Shown here: positions 4,102 to 29,250 of the stretch, in pieces
How positions within the stretch are numbered: position 1 is the stretch's first letter
How the letters are laid out: each line of letters starts with the position of its first letter
Virus record (IMG/VR): IMGVR_UViG_3300042400_001848
Span: 1-33,026 of that record
Origin: a virus
DNA length: 33,026 nt
Direction: 5' to 3' (one strand)
Translations under genes and position numbers: made by a program
Notes under the pieces: model-generated
What the model was told of the DNA's origin: nothing
What the model saw: only the letters and a program-made list of their open reading frames with translations
Database searches by the model: none

Positions 4102-4416
4102 ATGCAATCTTTAAAATTCAATGGAGATATTACGTTAGACGAAGTCTTCAACCAGCATCGAATCTTGATCTACGACAATGTGCTAGATGCAATTCAAAAG
4201 AATTACAAAGATTCTACAATTGAAGAAATTAAAGTCGTAACGATTACCTTAAACAACATTGAGTATTCAATAAACCTTTCTAGAAGTAAATTTGTTAGTG
4301 GTCTAGAAAACGCTATCTCTTTTTACGAAGCAGCTGAGGAATATGAGAAATGTCAAAGCTGTGTAGACATCATCAAAGATCTTAATAAGAAAAAAAAGAG
4401 AAAAGCAACTAACTAA
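4102..4416 (+). CDS. Hypothetical protein (104 aa) upstream of the sigma factor
   Basis: Not recognised. A 104-aa protein with an alpha/beta start and a lysine-rich tail (DLNKKKKRKATN). Residues 55-95 look helical and carry two cysteines (EKCQSCVDI), too few for a full zinc site. It is preceded by a 46-base gap with a possible promoter and followed 3 bases later by the sigma factor gene, so the two are probably co-transcribed. A partner or regulator of the sigma factor is conceivable from position alone; I see no motif to support it. Confidence 0.6.
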   Translation: MQSLKFNGDITLDEVFNQHRILIYDNVLDAIQKNYKDSTIEEIKVVTITLNNIEYSINLSRSKFVSGLENAISFYEAAEEYEKCQSCVDIIKDLNKKKKRKATN

Positions 4417-4419
4417 CAT

Positions 4420-5046
4420 ATGGGATACGAAGAAATAAATGGTAAAATCAACTTACGCATTCAGGAAATATCAGAAAAACTATTAACTGGCGAAATAACT
4501 GAGCCTGAAAGAAACGAATTAGCACAACTCATCTATCCAAAATTAAAGTTTTATATCTGGAAATTCTGTAAAAATGAATTTGATACAGAAGAGGCTTTAC
4601 AATATGCTCTAAAACGTATATTTAAAAATGTTGCTCAATTCAATTTTGAAAAAGGTAGATTTACTACATGGATTTATACAATTGCCCGTAACGAGACTCT
4701 ATATTATCTTTATCACAAGAAAAAACACAATCACCTTGATATAGATGATCTTTATCCAAAGGTCGATCGACCAGATGATTTTGAAGATAATAAAAGCTAT
4801 CACCTGGATATTGAAGAGCTCTATGCAAAAACAGTACACGAGATATTTAATATTGATGATGAGACGATGAAGAATATTGCAATCGATAAGATGATAAAAA
4901 ACAAAAAGGTAAAACAGATTGCGACTGATTATGAAATGAACGAGAACACTGTAAAAACCAAACTTCGAAAAATAAGAATCGATATTCGAGATGCAGTAAT
5001 TAAAGAAAATCCAGACCTAGAAGAAAAAATAAGAATGTTAATATGA
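4420..5046 (+). CDS. RNA polymerase sigma-70 family factor, ECF-like (candidate late sigma)
   Basis: A 208-aa two-domain sigma factor. Region 2 (about residues 35-100) contains [19 protein letters not shown], the typical sigma-2.2/2.4 signature of ECF factors (F-x-x-x-K-G-x-F-x-x-W-[IL]-x-x-I-A-R-N). Region 4 (about 150-190) has a helix-turn-helix [19 protein letters not shown]. An acidic linker separates them and region 3 is absent. It should replace the host sigma on RNA polymerase and direct it to phage promoters; in T4 that job belongs to gp55, which reads TATAAATA. Since ATAAATA boxes precede many late genes here, this is the natural candidate reader. Its stop overlaps the next start (ATGATG), implying translational coupling. 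Confidence 0.82.
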
Positions 5047-5504
5047 TGTTTGATAAAATTAATCCAATTAGAGTATTTAAGAATCTCAAAGCTTCAATTG
5101 AAGACCTAGCAAATTTCTATAAATACCAAAAAATTATCTTTGAGCTTCAGCGCGAAGGCAAGTTAGAGGCAATTGGTTTCTCATTAGATTCGAATGCCAA
5201 CCTATATCTTGGAATAAATTTGAATCCTGAACTTTTGCTTTATTCTGAAACGTCAACTGAACCTGCCGAACTTAAGATGATTGGCGAAAAAATGAGAAAA
5301 TACACAGATTTTCTAACAAAAGAAGGTATTCTCGACTTTGTTAAAGTCGATTACGATCGTATTCAGACAGAGACGTATTATGGATATATCCTTCAAGTAA
5401 GATATGACTTTAAAAAATACAGACGTGGCAGTTTTATTTATGGAATCAGCTACTTTCTTGCTATCGGAGCCTCTATTGCAGCTCTAGTATTAGTTTTAAT
5501 CTAA
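5043..5504 (+). CDS. C-terminal tail-anchored membrane protein, unknown function (153 aa)
   Basis: Not recognised. The start ATG overlaps the stop codon of the sigma factor gene by four bases; a second ATG at 5046 is equally possible. The first ~130 residues are soluble and mixed alpha/beta. The last ~20 ([19 protein letters not shown]) form one clear transmembrane helix ending at the C-terminus, the layout of a tail-anchored inner-membrane protein. The basic stretch KKYRRGS just before it would stay in the cytoplasm. Coupling to the sigma gene suggests joint expression, not necessarily a joint function. Confidence 0.62.
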
Positions 5505-5860: not shown

Positions 5861-6525
5861 TGATCGAGTGGATTAAGAGAAGCAAGGAGGGGATCATTCG
5901 TGCAATGTTCCTCATTCCTATTTTATCAGTTGCAACTATTTCTATTTCTCACGTAGTTAGCTGGTATGATTTAGCCAACCCAATTAGCTGGGCAGTATAT
6001 CTTTCAGTTGCAGTAGAAATTGCTGCAATGTCAGCTATTGCCGCAGCCTCAGTTAAAGTAAAAGGATTTTCTGTATGGTTCGTGTTCATTATTGTAACAC
6101 TTATCCAGTTTATTGGAAATATCTTCTTTTGTTATTCTGAAATAGATATTACCTCAACTTCATTTAAAAATTGGTCAGAATTAACTGGTCCAGTTTTTGA
6201 AATGATCGGTAGTGATATTACTGATACTATTGCACAAAGAAGATGGTTAGCCATGTTAGAAGGAGGCTTACTTCCTTTAATTTCGCTTACGTGTTTGCAC
6301 TTTTTTATTAAGTACGGCGAAATAGATAATATTAAATCAACTAAACAGGTTGAGGAAAAAGTATTAATTGAAGAAGAGTTACCAGTTACCGAAGTAATCA
6401 ATGGAGGACCAGTGGAAGAAGTAAAGCCGTCTGCTCCAATCGAACCATCAGTCGGAGGAGCTTTTCCAAAAATTGAAAGACGCTCTGAAATGAGCGAAAA
6501 AATGAAAAAAATCCAAGGAAAATGA
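5860..6525 (+). CDS. Integral membrane protein with about four transmembrane helices (221 aa)
   Basis: Start ATG overlaps the preceding stop by one base. Hydrophobic segments are near residues 14-35 (MFLIPILSVATISISHVV), 42-65 (WAVYLSVAVEIAAMSAIAAA), 69-90 (FSVWFVFIIVTLIQFIGNIF) and 128-148 (GGLLPLISLTCLHFFI). The last ~70 residues are soluble, acidic and proline-rich, then end in a lysine-rich tail (MSEKMKKIQGK). I do not recognise the family. It is larger than a typical holin, though the tandem placement after a TM/coiled-coil protein would suit an envelope-modifying role. Membrane topology is well supported; function is not. Confidence 0.62.
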   Translation: MIEWIKRSKEGIIRAMFLIPILSVATISISHVVSWYDLANPISWAVYLSVAVEIAAMSAIAAASVKVKGFSVWFVFIIVTLIQFIGNIFFCYSEIDITSTSFKNWSELTGPVFEMIGSDITDTIAQRRWLAMLEGGLLPLISLTCLHFFIKYGEIDNIKSTKQVEEKVLIEEELPVTEVINGGPVEEVKPSAPIEPSVGGAFPKIERRSEMSEKMKKIQGK

Positions 6526-16346: not shown

Positions 16347-17174
16347 ATGGATACCAGAATAGACTTCAATACTGCAAAAAAGTTCGATCAAGTAGAATTA
16401 GTTGATTGGAAAACTAGATACGCAGACTTTAAATTTTACGTTAGAAAAGGCCTAAATGAGGTAAAATATAACGTCGGAACAAACGTTTCAAAGGGCCCAA
16501 ATAGTGGCGAGTATATCAAGCCATTTACGTCTAAGACCATGGGTCAGCCATTGAATATTAATGCAATCCTTAACCAGTCAGATACTTGGTTAGATATCGG
16601 TGGTCACTTAGGTTTCTTTTCGATTCGTATGGCAAAACAATTTCCCAATATTAAAAAAGTAATTTCCTATGAAGCGTTACCGCATAACGTAAGCTTTGCA
16701 TTGGAAAATATTAAATTAAACAATGTTGAAGGAACTTGCGAGTTTGTACAAAAAGCAATCGTCCCAAATGAAGACGAGTCAATTAGCTTCTTTATTTCGT
16801 CTGACTCTGGAAAGCACTCAATTCTTCCAGTAAAAGGTCGCGAAAGTATTACTGTGCCTGCAATCAATATCAATGATGCAATTGCCCAAACTGGTGCAAC
16901 TGCTATTAAAATGGACGTTGAAGGTGCTGAATATGAATTAATTAAGGCTGTAAAAGACTGGTCAAATATCCGAGTAGTGGTAGTAGAATGGCACTTCAAT
17001 GCGATGCGAACCATCACTAAGGACAAAAACTATCGTGTTACTCTTTTCCAAGAGATTATGTCAATCCTTGGCAAGAACTTTGACACTATCCGTCAATTAC
17101 CAAACGTCGAATACGGTAAAAACTTCATTACTCACTTTGTTGCTATCAAGACTGATGGTAAAGAGTCCCTATAA
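16347..17174 (+). CDS. FkbM-family SAM-dependent methyltransferase (275 aa)
   Basis: Class I methyltransferase of the FkbM type. Motif I LDIGGHLGFFS is at residues 82-92, the acidic loop ISYEALPHN follows near 106-114, and the family hallmark KMDVEGAEYELI is at 188-199. FkbM enzymes mostly O-methylate sugars or small molecules, so DNA-base methylation would be atypical. Its neighbours are an MBD4-like glycosylase gene, overlapping by 20 bases, and a glycosyltransferase. The target may therefore be a sugar placed by that glycosyltransferase, either on DNA or on a surface glycan. Family call is strong; substrate is unknown. Confidence 0.85.
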   Translation: MDTRIDFNTAKKFDQVELVDWKTRYADFKFYVRKGLNEVKYNVGTNVSKGPNSGEYIKPFTSKTMGQPLNINAILNQSDTWLDIGGHLGFFSIRMAKQFPNIKKVISYEALPHNVSFALENIKLNNVEGTCEFVQKAIVPNEDESISFFISSDSGKHSILPVKGRESITVPAININDAIAQTGATAIKMDVEGAEYELIKAVKDWSNIRVVVVEWHFNAMRTITKDKNYRVTLFQEIMSILGKNFDTIRQLPNVEYGKNFITHFVAIKTDGKESL

Positions 17175-17571
17175 TTTACTACAAGAAATATACCACGAGC
17201 ATCCATGGCGGATGCTCGTGTGTTGTATCATGTTAAATTGTACTTCCCGTAAACAGGTGGATCAAGTACGAGAAAAATTCTTTCGCAAATATCCAGATGC
17301 AGTCGAAGCAGAACGTTCGGATCCTGCAGAAATGGCAGAACTTATTGCTCTTCTTGGATTTAAAAATAAACGCACTCAAACTATAATTCGTTTCTCGAGT
17401 GACTGGATGACCCTAGATTGGTCTGAACCCAATGAATTATATGGAATAGGTAAGTACGGACAAGATTCCTGGGAGATATTCCAGAAGGGCAACCTGAACG
17501 TTGTGCCTACTGATGGTGTATTAGATACTTACTTGGCCTGGGCCAGAACCCAACTTCAAAAAACAATATAA
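17155..17571 (+). CDS. MBD4-like mismatch DNA glycosylase (HhH-GPD superfamily), 138 aa
   Basis: Strong resemblance to the catalytic domain of MBD4, the G:T / G:U mismatch glycosylase. Visible matches are HPWRMLVCCIMLNCTSRKQV (MBD4: PWKLL...FLNRTSGK), FFRKYPDA, IALLGFKNKRTQTIIRFS, and the helix-hairpin-helix ELYGIGKYGQDSWEIF (residues 94-109). The aspartate in VVPTDGVLDTY (Asp120) aligns with the catalytic Asp of MBD4 (PEDHKLNKY). It should cut the N-glycosidic bond of thymine, uracil or an oxidised derivative opposite G. I start at ATG 17155, overlapping the methyltransferase by 20 bases; the open frame further upstream lies over that gene. The family fold begins close to this start. A perfect 11-bp hairpin lies in the first codons. 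Confidence 0.82.
   Translation: MVKSPYNLLQEIYHEHPWRMLVCCIMLNCTSRKQVDQVREKFFRKYPDAVEAERSDPAEMAELIALLGFKNKRTQTIIRFSSDWMTLDWSEPNELYGIGKYGQDSWEIFQKGNLNVVPTDGVLDTYLAWARTQLQKTI
17194..17220 (+). repeat. Perfect 11-bp inverted repeat in the start of the glycosylase gene
   Basis: CACGAGCATCC - ATGGC - GGATGCTCGTG, an 11-bp GC-rich stem with a 5-base loop, 40 bases after the start codon. No T-run follows, so it is not a classical terminator. It could attenuate translation or be a coincidence of the coding sequence for HEHPWRMLV. Confidence 0.7.
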
Positions 17572-17577
17572 GAATAT

Positions 17578-18636
17578 ATGAAATCACTATACGCATACTT
17601 TGGCTTATTGAATTTACATACAATTGATTCTCCAGGCCACTCACTTTATCAAATTGGCCTAATGGATTCACTTCGTCAAACCTTTGGAATTGAGCAATTT
17701 GATTTTTTCTCATATTACCCAGAAGACTTACAAAAGACTCATAGTGAATCTGGTTCGCGAATGTATCCTGCATCTTCTCTCGGCAACATATTTGAGCGCT
17801 ATAAAGATGAAATGGTTCACGATCATTTGATGTTAGATGAGACGCTTGCCAATATTACTGCCAAAAAATATAACATGCTCTTTCTTAAAGCTAGATTTAG
17901 AAATCTTTCTACTTTACAGAAAAAATGGAAAGATGCCAAAGCATTTGAACTGCTTATTGAAACTGCAATCCATTCTGGTTATACGAAAGATCAAATTATT
18001 ATCCTGGATACTGATCTTTCTTTGCCAGATTCTTTTTCTAGAAGGTATGGTGCCTCAGTAACTATTGTGATTCCGTCAATAGATTTTCCAGGAATATCCA
18101 ACCGTTTCTTATTAGACTGTGTTAGCGTTCATACCGCTAACTATATTAGAGATAGAAATACAGTTTTTTATGGAAATATTGATACTTCAAGTTATAAAAG
18201 CGGAAATTCAAAAAATGCAATTTTAGGAGAAGCTTTATCTTGGATCGCTAACTCTGAAAATAAATTAATTATTATTAGCAAGCAGAAAGATTTAGACGAG
18301 TGGAATGCTATTGCAGATGGAATTTTACGAAATAATCGCGGGACTATATGGAATGCACTAGAATCAAGTTTAGTAATGCTCAATATTACTAAGGACAAAT
18401 ATGATACTGTGCGCTTTATTCCAGCTAGAGTATATGAAGCAATGATCTTTGGCATGATTCCAGTCTCATATAATTTTAATTTCTTATGCGAAACATTTTC
18501 TTTTTCAAACATAGATGATTTAGTAGAAATTATTAAATATCTAAATGACTGTGAACCTGAAGATCAAAAGAAAGCATACATTCACTTTATCGATAATTAT
18601 TGTAAATACATTAAAGATTTAAACCAATGGAAATAG
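17578..18636 (+). CDS. GT-B glycosyltransferase resembling phage T4 beta-glucosyltransferase (352 aa)
   Basis: 352 aa, against 351 for T4 Bgt. From memory of Bgt, several segments align in order: DTDLSLPDSFSR (residues 144-155) with its FTDIRLPFSQSW, which holds the proposed catalytic Asp100; a strand ending in YG followed by Ser/Lys/Gly residues (198-211) with YGGSFRSGQR of the UDP-glucose site; and IPARVYEAMIFGMIPVSY (281-298) with ITLRVWETMASDAVMLID, including the ribose-binding R-V-x-E. The N-terminal MKSLYAYFGLLNL fits a GT-B first strand. If correct, it would glucosylate hydroxymethylated bases in phage DNA; it could instead glycosylate another target. It starts 6 bases after the glycosylase gene and overlaps the next ORF by 10 bases. 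Confidence 0.58.
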   Translation: MKSLYAYFGLLNLHTIDSPGHSLYQIGLMDSLRQTFGIEQFDFFSYYPEDLQKTHSESGSRMYPASSLGNIFERYKDEMVHDHLMLDETLANITAKKYNMLFLKARFRNLSTLQKKWKDAKAFELLIETAIHSGYTKDQIIILDTDLSLPDSFSRRYGASVTIVIPSIDFPGISNRFLLDCVSVHTANYIRDRNTVFYGNIDTSSYKSGNSKNAILGEALSWIANSENKLIIISKQKDLDEWNAIADGILRNNRGTIWNALESSLVMLNITKDKYDTVRFIPARVYEAMIFGMIPVSYNFNFLCETFSFSNIDDLVEIIKYLNDCEPEDQKKAYIHFIDNYCKYIKDLNQWK

Positions 18637-18803: not shown

Positions 18804-18810
18804 CTGCATT

Positions 18811-18836
18811 TTCCTAATAAATAATATTATTAGGAA
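18811..18836 (+). promoter_or_regulatory. Late promoter box (18816-18823) inside a perfect 10-bp inverted repeat
   Basis: TTCCTAATAA - ATAATA - TTATTAGGAA: 10-bp arms with a 6-base centre. The left arm and centre contain AATAAATAATA, the late-box core, 35 bases before the ATG at 18851. The palindrome could be an operator over the promoter, or a weak bidirectional terminator for the 18803 stop. Confidence 0.6.
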
Positions 18837-18850
18837 ATAATGTAGTTTTT

Positions 18851-19933
18851 ATGAGAAGAATTATTTTAATTGGTTTACTACTAAGTAGTTTAGCTGGGTA
18901 TTCACAAACCTGCAGCACCATCACTGCTTATGATTACATGGAAACCTGGAATTGGACAGGTGATTGGTGGATTCCTGCAGCTACGACTAATTTTTACACA
19001 AATGCATCAGTTAGTCCCAGTACAAGCGCAGTTTTATATGGAACTGGTGGGGGAAGTAGTGCAAATGAAGTCGACTGGTATTCTATGCCAAACCGAACTG
19101 GACTAAATCTAAGTTCAGCATATCATTTTAAATTTAGACTTGGATCTTATCGATTTACTTCAACTAGTGCTACTAGAGGAGTAGACGTTGGTGATTTTAT
19201 AGAAGTTCAACTGAGCACAAACGGTGGAGTTACCTATACTTCTGAAATCAGAGTCACTGGAAACAGCAATGCCTATTGGTCATATAATACAAATGGTACA
19301 ATAAACAAAATCGCAAACGGCACCCTAACTACTTATTCACCAACTGGTGGAGGTGATCGTACCTTAACTGGAGACGGATACTCAGTAATAGATCTTACTC
19401 TTCCTTCTGGGATAACCCAATGTGCAGTTGATATTTACTGCAGAGCAAATGCTGCCGGTGAAGAGTGGTGGATCGACAATATAGAATTAATTGAATATTT
19501 TACATGTGCACCCCTTCCGATTGAACTTATTTACTTTACTGCACAGTCGGTCGGCTCGCGTGTCGTTTTAGATTGGACAACTGTTTCTGAACTTAATAAT
19601 GACCATTTTATACTTGAACGATCAACTGATGCGTTGCAATGGACAGAAATAGGAAGAGTCGATGGAGTCGGCACCACTTCGCAGCTTTCTACATATCATT
19701 TTATTGATGCTCACCCAAATATTGGCGCAAACTATTACCGACTTTCTCAAGTAGACTTTGATGGAACTCAAGAGTTTTTCAATTTAGTATATGCAGAAAT
19801 TAGTGATCCGCGAATAAACTGTAAATATTCATATTTCGATATAGCTGGACAGGAAGTAAATTATGATTTTGCTCCTCCTGGAATATATTTTAGGTTATGT
19901 GGTGAAACTATTGAAAAGATAATTAAGAACTAA
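18851..19933 (+). CDS. Secreted Bacteroidetes-type protein with degenerate T9SS-like C-terminal region (360 aa)
   Basis: Clear signal peptide (residues 1-19, IILIGLLLSSLAGYSQ). Residues 20-215 form a beta-sandwich-like region (DFIEVQLSTNGGVTYTSEIR), similar to adhesin or carbohydrate-binding domains. Residues 222-315 have the Bacteroidetes hallmark PLPIELIYFTAQ ... VLDWTTVSELNNDHFILERS ... GANYYRLSQVDFDGTQEF that normally precedes a type IX secretion sorting domain. The end, YFDIAGQEV then APPGIYFRL and IEKIIKN, matches the last strands of a type A sorting domain but is shorter than usual. It looks host-derived, yet carries a phage late box. It may be exported to the cell surface late in infection, or be a virion adhesin. 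Very unusual content for a phage. Confidence 0.8.
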   Translation: MRRIILIGLLLSSLAGYSQTCSTITAYDYMETWNWTGDWWIPAATTNFYTNASVSPSTSAVLYGTGGGSSANEVDWYSMPNRTGLNLSSAYHFKFRLGSYRFTSTSATRGVDVGDFIEVQLSTNGGVTYTSEIRVTGNSNAYWSYNTNGTINKIANGTLTTYSPTGGGDRTLTGDGYSVIDLTLPSGITQCAVDIYCRANAAGEEWWIDNIELIEYFTCAPLPIELIYFTAQSVGSRVVLDWTTVSELNNDHFILERSTDALQWTEIGRVDGVGTTSQLSTYHFIDAHPNIGANYYRLSQVDFDGTQEFFNLVYAEISDPRINCKYSYFDIAGQEVNYDFAPPGIYFRLCGETIEKIIKN

Positions 19934-19946
19934 CCAATTCGGCTAA

Positions 19947-19954
19947 GATAAATA
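19947..19954 (+). promoter_or_regulatory. Late promoter box GATAAATA
   Basis: GATAAATAATAAGAAAG, 27 bases before the ATG at 19974, in a 40-base gap. Close to the consensus of the set. Confidence 0.68.
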
Positions 19955-19973
19955 ATAAGAAAGATTTCTTATA

Positions 19974-21935
19974 ATGAAATATGTTTCACCTTATGGAACC
20001 ACTCCAGAATCTGCACAATTAATTTGCGAATATTTTAAAGGAAACGAGCAAATATTTGCTAAAGTAGTAACTTTTGAAAACGTTGAATGGGAAAGCCGCA
20101 TGTTAAATATTGCAGAGTCTGCAATTTCAGAAAAAGCATTAATTGATCTTCACTTTGATATGATTGTTAATGATGGTGCTCGTGCAATCACTAAATATTA
20201 CAAAAACTTAATTTCTGGTAAAAATGATGTGCTTGAAAGAGCTAAAATCAAATTTACTAATCTTAATAGCCACCGAATCGACGAATCTGCCGATATCTTT
20301 AGACAGCGTGCAAAGAAGAGAATGACTAACATGCTTGCTGAATTAGACCTAAATACTATTAATTGGGCAACAAATCCAGGTGGAGCATTACAAACTCAAT
20401 TAACTAATGCTACTGGACAAACTGTTCCTACTTCCGATCTTCAAAATCAATTAAAAGCTGCCCTAACTGGAGGTGCAAAACCTACCGCGACTGGAGCAAT
20501 TGCAAATACTCCAGAAGAATTTGATAAAGCCCTTGCTGGGGGAGAATATACTGGTAAAACTGAAGGCAGCACAATGGGGTTTTTGCATGAATTATGGAGT
20601 GCACTTACTGAGGGAGGATCTACTATTGGAATTGTTCACTTAGTCTTAGATATAGTTGGAGTAGTCGGAGACATATTCGGGCCAGCAATACCAATTGGAT
20701 TAGTTGCAGACGTACTGAACGCAATCATTTATTTTGTCAGAGCAGCGACTGCTCCAGAAGGAGAAAGCGGCAAGTTCTGGTTACTTGGTTCTATTTCATT
20801 AATTGCAGCATTCGTATTTGGTGCAGGTGATGCCCTAAAATTACTTAAACCTGCTGCAAAATCTGCTGCTCCAGTAATGGAAGCCATTCTTAAAGGTGGT
20901 TCGAAAGCAGGTGGTGACGCTCTTGCAAAAGTATCAGCAAAAGAAGCTGGTCCAGTAATGAAATTATTACAATTTATTTCGAAAAATATTAGCGAAGTCT
21001 TAGGAAAAGCAAGTGGTCTTCTTGGAAAATTCTTTGATGGATTTATTGCAAAATTAGTAGGTTGGATTCCTTTTATTGGAAAACCGCTAAAAGGTTTCTT
21101 TGAATCGATCGGCACGTCATTTGCAAAATATGGCGATAACTTAACGGGCTTTGCAAAAGAATATTCAGCTGCTGAAAAAGCAGCTATTGAAATTGGAGCA
21201 AAGGAAATTGATACTGGAGTAGAAACAATGTTAAAAAACAGTAATCAGTCTTTAATCATTGATGATGCTACTAAAATGGCAAAAATAGTTGACCAGGACG
21301 GTAAAGCGATAACAAAAGAATTTCAAGCCGACTGGTTGAAAAAGGACTTTGACAAAAAAGCAGCAGGTCTCTTCGGTAACGACAAAGCAATTGCTAAATA
21401 TTATTCAAATGTTGCCTCTTCAAATGCCGTAATGGCAGAAGGAATCGGCAAATACTTTATTAAGAAAGGTTGGAAATCAATCAAAGGTACTGGTAAACTT
21501 GCATTTTTTATAGGCAAACAAATTATCAAACTAATTAATAATGGAAAAGATTGGCAAGATCTAGGATACAAAAAAGAAGAGGTTGAATATTGGGGAAATT
21601 CAGCGCTTCATAGCTGGCTGCAAGATGAAATTCACAAGAAAAAAGAAGAAACTGGTGCAACCTATCTTCCAGCAATAGACCTTGATTCTGATCAAAAGGA
21701 AGTATTCGATAATATTACAAACTATCAAAACAATTATGCTAAATTATTTGGACAGCCAAGTATTATTCCAGTAATCTACAATAAGTATGGAAATACTGAA
21801 GATGAATTCAATGAATTTTTCGATGAAGTAAAAAAAGGTACAGTAAAACCAGAAGATTCAGACGAATCTAAAAAAGAAAGTGTGAAAGAATCTATTTCAC
21901 ACTTACGTTATATTATCCCTTATTCTAAATTTTAA
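19974..21935 (+). CDS. Large late protein with central hydrophobic region; candidate ejected/internal virion protein (653 aa)
   Basis: Not recognised. Residues 1-200 are helical and charged. Residues 217-258 (GIVHLVLDIVGVVGDIFGPA, then a second hydrophobic stretch) and 268-286 are Gly/Ala/Val-rich hydrophobic segments like those in pre-toxin regions of polymorphic toxins and in pore-like ejection proteins. An Ala/Gly/Lys-rich helical section (280-400) follows, then a soluble alpha/beta end with KESVKESISHLRY. A late box precedes it. It ends 2 bases from the stop of the minus-strand gene that faces it. Similar hydrophobic-core architecture in that neighbour suggests related roles; channel formation or DNA ejection is inferred only. 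Confidence 0.6.
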   Translation: MKYVSPYGTTPESAQLICEYFKGNEQIFAKVVTFENVEWESRMLNIAESAISEKALIDLHFDMIVNDGARAITKYYKNLISGKNDVLERAKIKFTNLNSHRIDESADIFRQRAKKRMTNMLAELDLNTINWATNPGGALQTQLTNATGQTVPTSDLQNQLKAALTGGAKPTATGAIANTPEEFDKALAGGEYTGKTEGSTMGFLHELWSALTEGGSTIGIVHLVLDIVGVVGDIFGPAIPIGLVADVLNAIIYFVRAATAPEGESGKFWLLGSISLIAAFVFGAGDALKLLKPAAKSAAPVMEAILKGGSKAGGDALAKVSAKEAGPVMKLLQFISKNISEVLGKASGLLGKFFDGFIAKLVGWIPFIGKPLKGFFESIGTSFAKYGDNLTGFAKEYSAAEKAAIEIGAKEIDTGVETMLKNSNQSLIIDDATKMAKIVDQDGKAITKEFQADWLKKDFDKKAAGLFGNDKAIAKYYSNVASSNAVMAEGIGKYFIKKGWKSIKGTGKLAFFIGKQIIKLINNGKDWQDLGYKKEEVEYWGNSALHSWLQDEIHKKKEETGATYLPAIDLDSDQKEVFDNITNYQNNYAKLFGQPSIIPVIYNKYGNTEDEFNEFFDEVKKGTVKPEDSDESKKESVKESISHLRYIIPYSKF

Positions 21936-28809: not shown

Positions 28810-29250
28810 ATGATGAGTGAATACCTTCAAAATACTACAATTCCACTATTTGAAACTTTCTGTAGAAAGAATCAAGTTGATGGCAAAACAATAACTGCCG
28901 AAATTGCTGGAAAACCATTACAATTAATGGTTGCAACTACTCCTCGTAGTCAAGCAAAAGGTTATATGGGAGCAACTGAAGAACCGCGAGACGGAGAAGG
29001 AATACTATTTGTGTATGACGGAGAAGACACTCGATCCTTTTGGATGAAAGACGTGCCCTTTTCATTAGATATTATGTTTTTTGATTCTAACATGAATTAT
29101 ATTGGGCATGAAACCATGGCTGCACATGATGGAGCCGACGATCACAATATTCCTAAATACTTTAGTAAAAAACCTGCGCGCTTTGCAGTTGAAATAAAAT
29201 CTGGATGGTGCGATCAAAATATCGACGGCGACTGTTCCCTTAAGATTTAA
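28810..29250 (+). CDS. DUF192 family protein (146 aa)
   Basis: Matches the DUF192 fold: LMVATTPRSQAKGYMGATEE, then GILFVYDGEDTRSFWMKDVP (family pattern F-W-M-K-x-[VT]-x-x-[PS]-L-D-[IV]-[IM]-F), followed by FSLDIMFFDSNMNYIG. DUF192 is a small beta-barrel family of unknown function, usually exported in bacteria; here there is no signal peptide. In halophilic and other phages members occur near structural genes. ATG 28810 or 28813 may be the start. It follows a terminator and a late box that is too close for a normal leader. Function not known. Confidence 0.82.
   Translation: MMSEYLQNTTIPLFETFCRKNQVDGKTITAEIAGKPLQLMVATTPRSQAKGYMGATEEPRDGEGILFVYDGEDTRSFWMKDVPFSLDIMFFDSNMNYIGHETMAAHDGADDHNIPKYFSKKPARFAVEIKSGWCDQNIDGDCSLKI

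Follow-up and report, generated by a model that had tools for sequence, protein, structure and literature searches.

A putative type IX secretion cargo with a short C-terminal signal, encoded by an exchangeable phage gene

Why should a phage carry a gene whose product looks made for the surface of the cell it infects, and where would that product go when its C-terminal end is shorter than the sorting-domain models expect? The question is raised by one gene of a freshwater phage. The window, that is, the whole stretch of DNA analysed here, is a virus record of 33,026 nucleotides (33 kb); among its genes are those for a T4-type baseplate wedge protein, a large terminase and a VanY/peptidoglycan-binding lysin. 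An earlier note on this DNA had described a host-like secreted protein with a shortened type IX secretion system (T9SS) sorting domain, placed behind a late promoter and perhaps retained in the periplasm. The reading favoured here, at a probability of roughly 70%, is that the gene encodes an accessory T9SS cargo borne by the phage, expressed late and displayed on the infected cell, where it would presumably act. The features discussed are collected in Table 1.

Table 1. Positions of the features discussed, in window coordinates
Feature	Position	Strand	Basis or remark
Phage sigma factor (sigma-70 region 2)	4420-5046	+	Pfam E 1.2e-11; PHROG RNA polymerase sigma factor
g352, left flank of cargo slot	17578-18636	+	conserved in syntenic phages
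11-bp inverted repeat around motif	arms 18810-18820, 18827-18837		arm-loop-arm TTTCCTAATAA-ATAATA-TTATTAGGAAA
Late-promoter-like motif ATAAATAAT (ATAAATAA at 18817-18824)	18817-18825	+	34 nt before start codon
Cargo gene, 360 aa	18851-19933	+	ORF call; relatives; dN/dS about 0.12-0.2
Predicted signal peptide, residues 1-18; cleavage expected before Gln19	18851-18904	+	Q-rule
Predicted jelly-roll (lectin/adhesin-like) domain, residues 19-215	18905-19495	+	AF2; Foldseek
Fn3-like module LPIEL..NYYRLSQVD, residues 221-313	19511-19789	+	matches Bacteroidota plasmid proteins
Putative short T9SS-type C-terminal signal, residues 314-360	19790-19930	+	alignments; PMC11969387 precedent
Motif B (YFDIAGQEV)	19832-19858	+	Gly333 invariant 29/29
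Motif D (GIY)	19880-19888	+	motif comparison
Motif E and stop (EKIIKN, stop)	19911-19933	+	stretch left as 3' scar in two emptied slots
GATAAATAAT motif of next gene g653, right border of slot	19947-19956	+	motif count; relatives
g653, right flank of cargo slot	19974-21935	+	conserved in syntenic phages

The gene, its slot and its promoter-like motif

The open reading frame is a real gene under purifying selection, as judged across five pairs of family sequences. Its product begins MRRIILIGLLLSSLAGYS/QTC, the stroke marking the expected cleavage point, and ends in YFDIAGQEVNYDFAPPGIYFRLCGETIEKIIKN. HMM tests of the protein itself (Pfam, NCBIfam, PHROGs, PDB) gave no usable match. An Endotoxin_C match below the cut-off (E=0.0023) is explained by a jelly-roll in common, and identity with a toxin was rejected.

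Scanning IMG/VR with the whole protein located relatives at 42 loci, and scanning with an alignment of the N-terminal domain located 80, all on viral contigs; the two scans together yield 61 distinct sequences. No relative of the N-terminal domain turned up when 84,980 prokaryote genomes were scanned twice; the family scans start from short peptide patterns, and remote homologues may be missed. With a 97% near-twin set aside, relatives are 52-63% identical to the window protein in the N-terminal domain and 28-39% in the C-terminal part. The epithet 'host-like' suits the C-terminal module; for the N-terminal domain no host homologue was found in the genome scans. That the gene is a host gene, or that host DNA contaminates the contig, is scarcely credible despite the host-like character of the Fn3-like module and the leader: conserved phage genes flank it on both sides, and independent contigs show the same gene order; 80 viral loci stand against none in the genome scans; and such contigs carry TerL, gp23 and sigma genes.

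The gene is best read as accessory, exchangeable cargo. The slot, the site between g352 or g58 and g653, was surveyed in phages that belong to the same terminase lineage and have kept their synteny. Jelly-roll cargo occupies it in four phages (the window, L002, L009 and L040), and MAM/CUB-type cargo with the same short end in two (L193 and L194); it is empty in six (L227-L231 and L233), and while records without cargo may be incomplete, for these six the slot sequence itself was read. In L227 the last codons of the gene persist as a 3' scar at 23/23 nt, in L229 at 22/23 nt, so a cargo was lost from both. In most other lineages the family gene is flanked by unrelated genes.

Other genes in these neighbourhoods deserve mention in their own right. 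At 16347-17571 of the window, an FkbM-type methyltransferase (PF05050) is overlapped by an HhH-GPD (endonuclease III-like) ORF, an arrangement that is syntenic in most of the phage lineage. In another phage lineage a GroEL-like chaperonin ORF recurs near the cargo at nine loci, as the third or fourth gene downstream (L120, L125, L128 and others; 538 aa in L120). Shortly downstream of the family gene, L161 has a second predicted T9SS cargo (4323-5444; TIGR04183 35 bits) and L162 the same ORF; some phages thus carry two predicted cargoes.

The late promoter proposed in the earlier note is borne out as a motif. Fourteen copies of ATAAATAA were observed in the window where 7 were expected, and 11 of the 14 lie 10-34 nt upstream of a gene start (plus strand: 5523, 9219, 14109, 18817, 19948, 24702, 26230, 28316, 28800 and 30600; minus strand: 24687); for GATAAATAAT the count is 4 against 0.4 expected. 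In every relative examined g653 is preceded by the motif, and in all five examined relatives with an occupied slot the cargo has its own copy of ATAAATAA, which takes the form TATAAATAA in L193 and L194. The motif resembles the T4 late promoter TATAAATA, and the phage sigma factor is a candidate for its reader. Here a T4-late-promoter-like signal occurs in a phage of Bacteroidota with a sigma factor gene of its own. The same late-type motif precedes a phage-encoded DUF192 (COG1430) protein at 28810-29250 of the window. L009 and L040 likewise have an inverted repeat ahead of the cargo (about 5900-5950); the hairpin of L040, TTTTAAGAG..CTCTTAAAA, differs in sequence from that of the window and is similarly placed, at the motif or directly behind it and ahead of the start codon.

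Export leader and predicted domains

A hydrophobic leader followed directly by Gln was found in 54 of the 54 distinct relatives with a readable start, which upholds the signal peptide and Sec export that had been proposed. Gln directly after the leader is the Bacteroidetes Q-rule for substrates of signal peptidase I (PMC5837995); as leader and Gln fit this rule throughout, export is supported, and the N-terminal Sec signal peptide general to T9SS cargo is likewise present in all 54. The leader also points to a Bacteroidota host, and the Q-rule together with the host-like module suggests that this host would have a T9SS.

The constancy of the leader bears on another possibility, that of a virion decoration or adhesion protein with Ig/Fn3-like domains, similar to Hoc, in which the leader plays no role in export. 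Invariant leader and Gln would be purposeless for a virion assembled in the cytoplasm; moreover, relatives with full T9SS domains exist, and the flanking genes are unrelated in other lineages. Decoration is thus quite improbable, even granting that the late-motif context suits it, that a T4-like major capsid gene adjoins or lies near the family gene at 18 loci, and that the cargo is dispensable, as decoration proteins can be.

Behind the leader, an all-beta jelly-roll is confidently predicted for the N-terminal domain. In a full-length AF2 model (pLDDT 74) this domain was poorly resolved, and Foldseek matches there were discounted; a deeper alignment of the domain, with 57 sequences, mended the model (pLDDT 94, pTM 0.91). 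Among PDB entries, the best Foldseek matches of the predicted fold are ligand-binding jelly-rolls: Eph ligand-binding domains, MAM domains, reelin, CBM16, CBM61 and a porphyran CBM. The likeness is one of fold (TM about 0.4-0.6), with identity of 5-16% and no sequence-family match. The adhesin-like beta domain read from the sequence earlier is in keeping with this lectin/adhesin-like prediction.

Similarity of the modelled fold to carbohydrate-binding modules, and the presence of glycoside hydrolases among the cargo of Cryophage (PMC7468147), might suggest a T9SS cargo that is released to the medium and acts outside the cell, for example on surrounding polysaccharide. Such release is very improbable: no catalytic domain was found in Pfam/NCBIfam-type HMM and Foldseek comparisons, and anchoring is favoured by analogy with the short C-terminal domains (CTDs) of Prevotella intermedia (PMC11969387).

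Next comes the Fn3-like module, common to the window protein and to proteins encoded on Bacteroidota plasmids, whose annotation is T9SS type A cargo; the Bacteroidetes motif PLPIEL...NYYRLSQVD, pointed out in the earlier note, belongs to it.

The short C-terminal end

The shortened sorting-domain ending is real, and it is a family trait: an end of about 45 residues is present in 48 distinct sequences. The idea of a decaying, truncated gene was rejected for this reason, and on account of the low dN/dS. The window protein itself matches neither TIGR04183 nor PF18962, and in that respect the check proposed for it came out negative. A full seven-strand sandwich with an N-terminal PNP region is not seen; PNP occurs in 0 of 48 short ends, and the PNP strands and the b4-b5 region are missing. 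What is kept is the Gly of motif B, motif D (GxY) and a basic C-terminal strand (motif E); of the 48 distinct ends, 45 have K, R or H among their three final residues. The invariant G333 falls in the b3-b4 loop; the matching Gly is needed in RgpB, where Gly to Arg blocks secretion (PMC11285876). AF2 assigns three strands (327-330, 344-350 and 353-359), which would form the single three-stranded sheet of a P. intermedia-type short CTD; the length, about 40-55 aa, and the short spacing from motif B to motif D also agree with that type. Against a spacing of 1-6 aa reported for P. intermedia, the value is 1-6 in 37 of 48 ends and 7 in the window, with motif borders drawn by the analyst's own pattern. 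A PT/GI cleavage-site motif is not evident in the family alignment; other species differ from P. intermedia here (PMC11969387).

The case that so short an end is a T9SS-type signal is well supported but indirect, and is made by exchange of endings, by a second payload and by the motifs kept. Five relatives with the same N-terminal domain (L126, L129, L136, L140 and L178) have a full T9SS type A sorting domain at the C-terminus, with TIGR04183 scores of 35-40 bits against a cut-off of 23, and the Pfam cut-off is also exceeded; for these, the TIGR04183 check that failed with the window protein gave a match. A further relative, L150, scores just below the cut-off. The contigs of L126, L178 and L150 carry a gp23 capsid gene, and the full-ended genes there are consequently phage genes. 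In a tree of the N-terminal domain the full-ended sequences do not form a single clade (p-AU 2.5e-7); three changes of ending are required, and well-supported branches force two or more of these. The second payload, MAM-like by eye with a CUB domain, has the short end in L193 and L194 and a long one in L215, which scores below the sorting-domain cut-off. Comparison of profiles of phage short and full ends gave a weak match (13 columns at 52%), as may be expected of sequences so short. The short end was sought among plasmid-borne genes of Bacteroidota and not found; the sole full-length match has a normal full CTD.

These observations also weigh on the proposal that a truncated sorting domain leaves the protein in the periplasm. 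In its present form this would have the protein exported by Sec and then stopped in the periplasm or on the inside of the outer membrane, with a short end that does no more than cap the Fn3-like module and is no T9SS signal. In P. gingivalis, RgpB that lacks its last two residues or the motif B region is indeed retained in the periplasm (PMC11285876), and the window protein lacks a sorting-domain match. However, one and the same payload bears either the short end or a full T9SS domain, and P. intermedia cleaves and glycosylates short CTDs built in this way (PMC11969387). Retention is consequently unlikely, if not negligible, and the argument from truncation is set aside: the end is conserved, is swapped with full domains, and matches CTDs that function.

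Proposed role and known systems

Display as T9SS cargo would proceed as follows. Transcription would come late, from the cargo's own TATAAATA-type promoter; the product would be exported by Sec, signal peptidase I cutting before Gln19, which would become pyroglutamate by the Q-rule; the short signal, with motifs B, D and E on a three-stranded sheet, would take the protein across the outer membrane via the T9SS; a sortase would exchange the C-terminal signal for a surface-glycan anchor; and the mature product, a lectin/adhesin-like jelly-roll on an Fn3-like stalk, would remodel the infected cell's surface, whether it masks receptors or glycans (superinfection exclusion) or affects adhesion. Support for this chain is strong up to export. 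The gene, its leader and architecture, the conserved motifs, the swapping of long and short signals and of cargo at the slot, and the promoter motif are all seen in the sequences; T9SS transport, anchoring and a function at the surface are inferred. Alteration of the surface is the most likely role of the cargo.

If the short end functions, phages can use the export machine of the host to redecorate Bacteroidota surfaces, with consequences for superinfection exclusion, adhesion and the ecology of phage and host in lakes and seas. Such a strategy would be hidden from annotation: T9SS cargo is usually counted with TIGR04183-type models, these are blind to the short signal, and phage (perhaps also host) cargo that carries it would escape entirely. 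The short ends would further serve as natural compact signals for probing the true requirements of the T9SS.

How widely this applies may be glimpsed among huge phages. LR745206 and LR756502 have Fn3-like modules with short ends, the reading frame of LR745206 being without a leader as found, and LR756500 has a full sorting domain. In L188 and L189 (huge phages LR756500 and LR756504) a leader and an Fn3-like module are joined to long C-terminal ends; T9SS-type cargo is seemingly present, then, in phages of 460-640 kb too. Tentatively, one might suppose that Bacteroidota phages from T4-like ones to those of more than 600 kb have in common a compact T9SS signal and exchangeable cargo, and use them to re-dress the infected cell late; this is a possibility on which we would not lean heavily.

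The closest functional parallel to the short end is that of P. intermedia, for which sortase cleavage and glycan attachment of short CTDs have been shown (Ye et al. 2025, PMC11969387). As judged from the published description, both kinds of end have about 40-55 residues with motifs B, D and E, a short B-D spacing, and three strands equivalent to b3, b6 and b7; in both, short CTDs coexist with long ones. The difference is that the end described here belongs to phages and is known from sequence and model.

Phage-encoded T9SS cargo is itself already known. Cryophage encodes variable T9SS cargo with sorting domains, for which superinfection exclusion was proposed (Bellas et al. 2020, PMC7468147); there the type A sorting domains are recognized by the models and the payloads are enzymatic or PA14, whereas the window cargo combines a jelly-roll payload with an end that the models miss, in a slot that may be occupied, filled by an alternative or emptied. 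In crAss-like phages, ORFs with T9SS sorting domains lie near head genes, one of them together with BACON domains (PMC6949934); these share a T9SS-type end with the window cargo, and differ in phage group, in payload and in having a sorting domain that is recognized. What is new is that phages have the short signal, that one payload can bear either this or a full domain, and that there is a cargo slot with scars.
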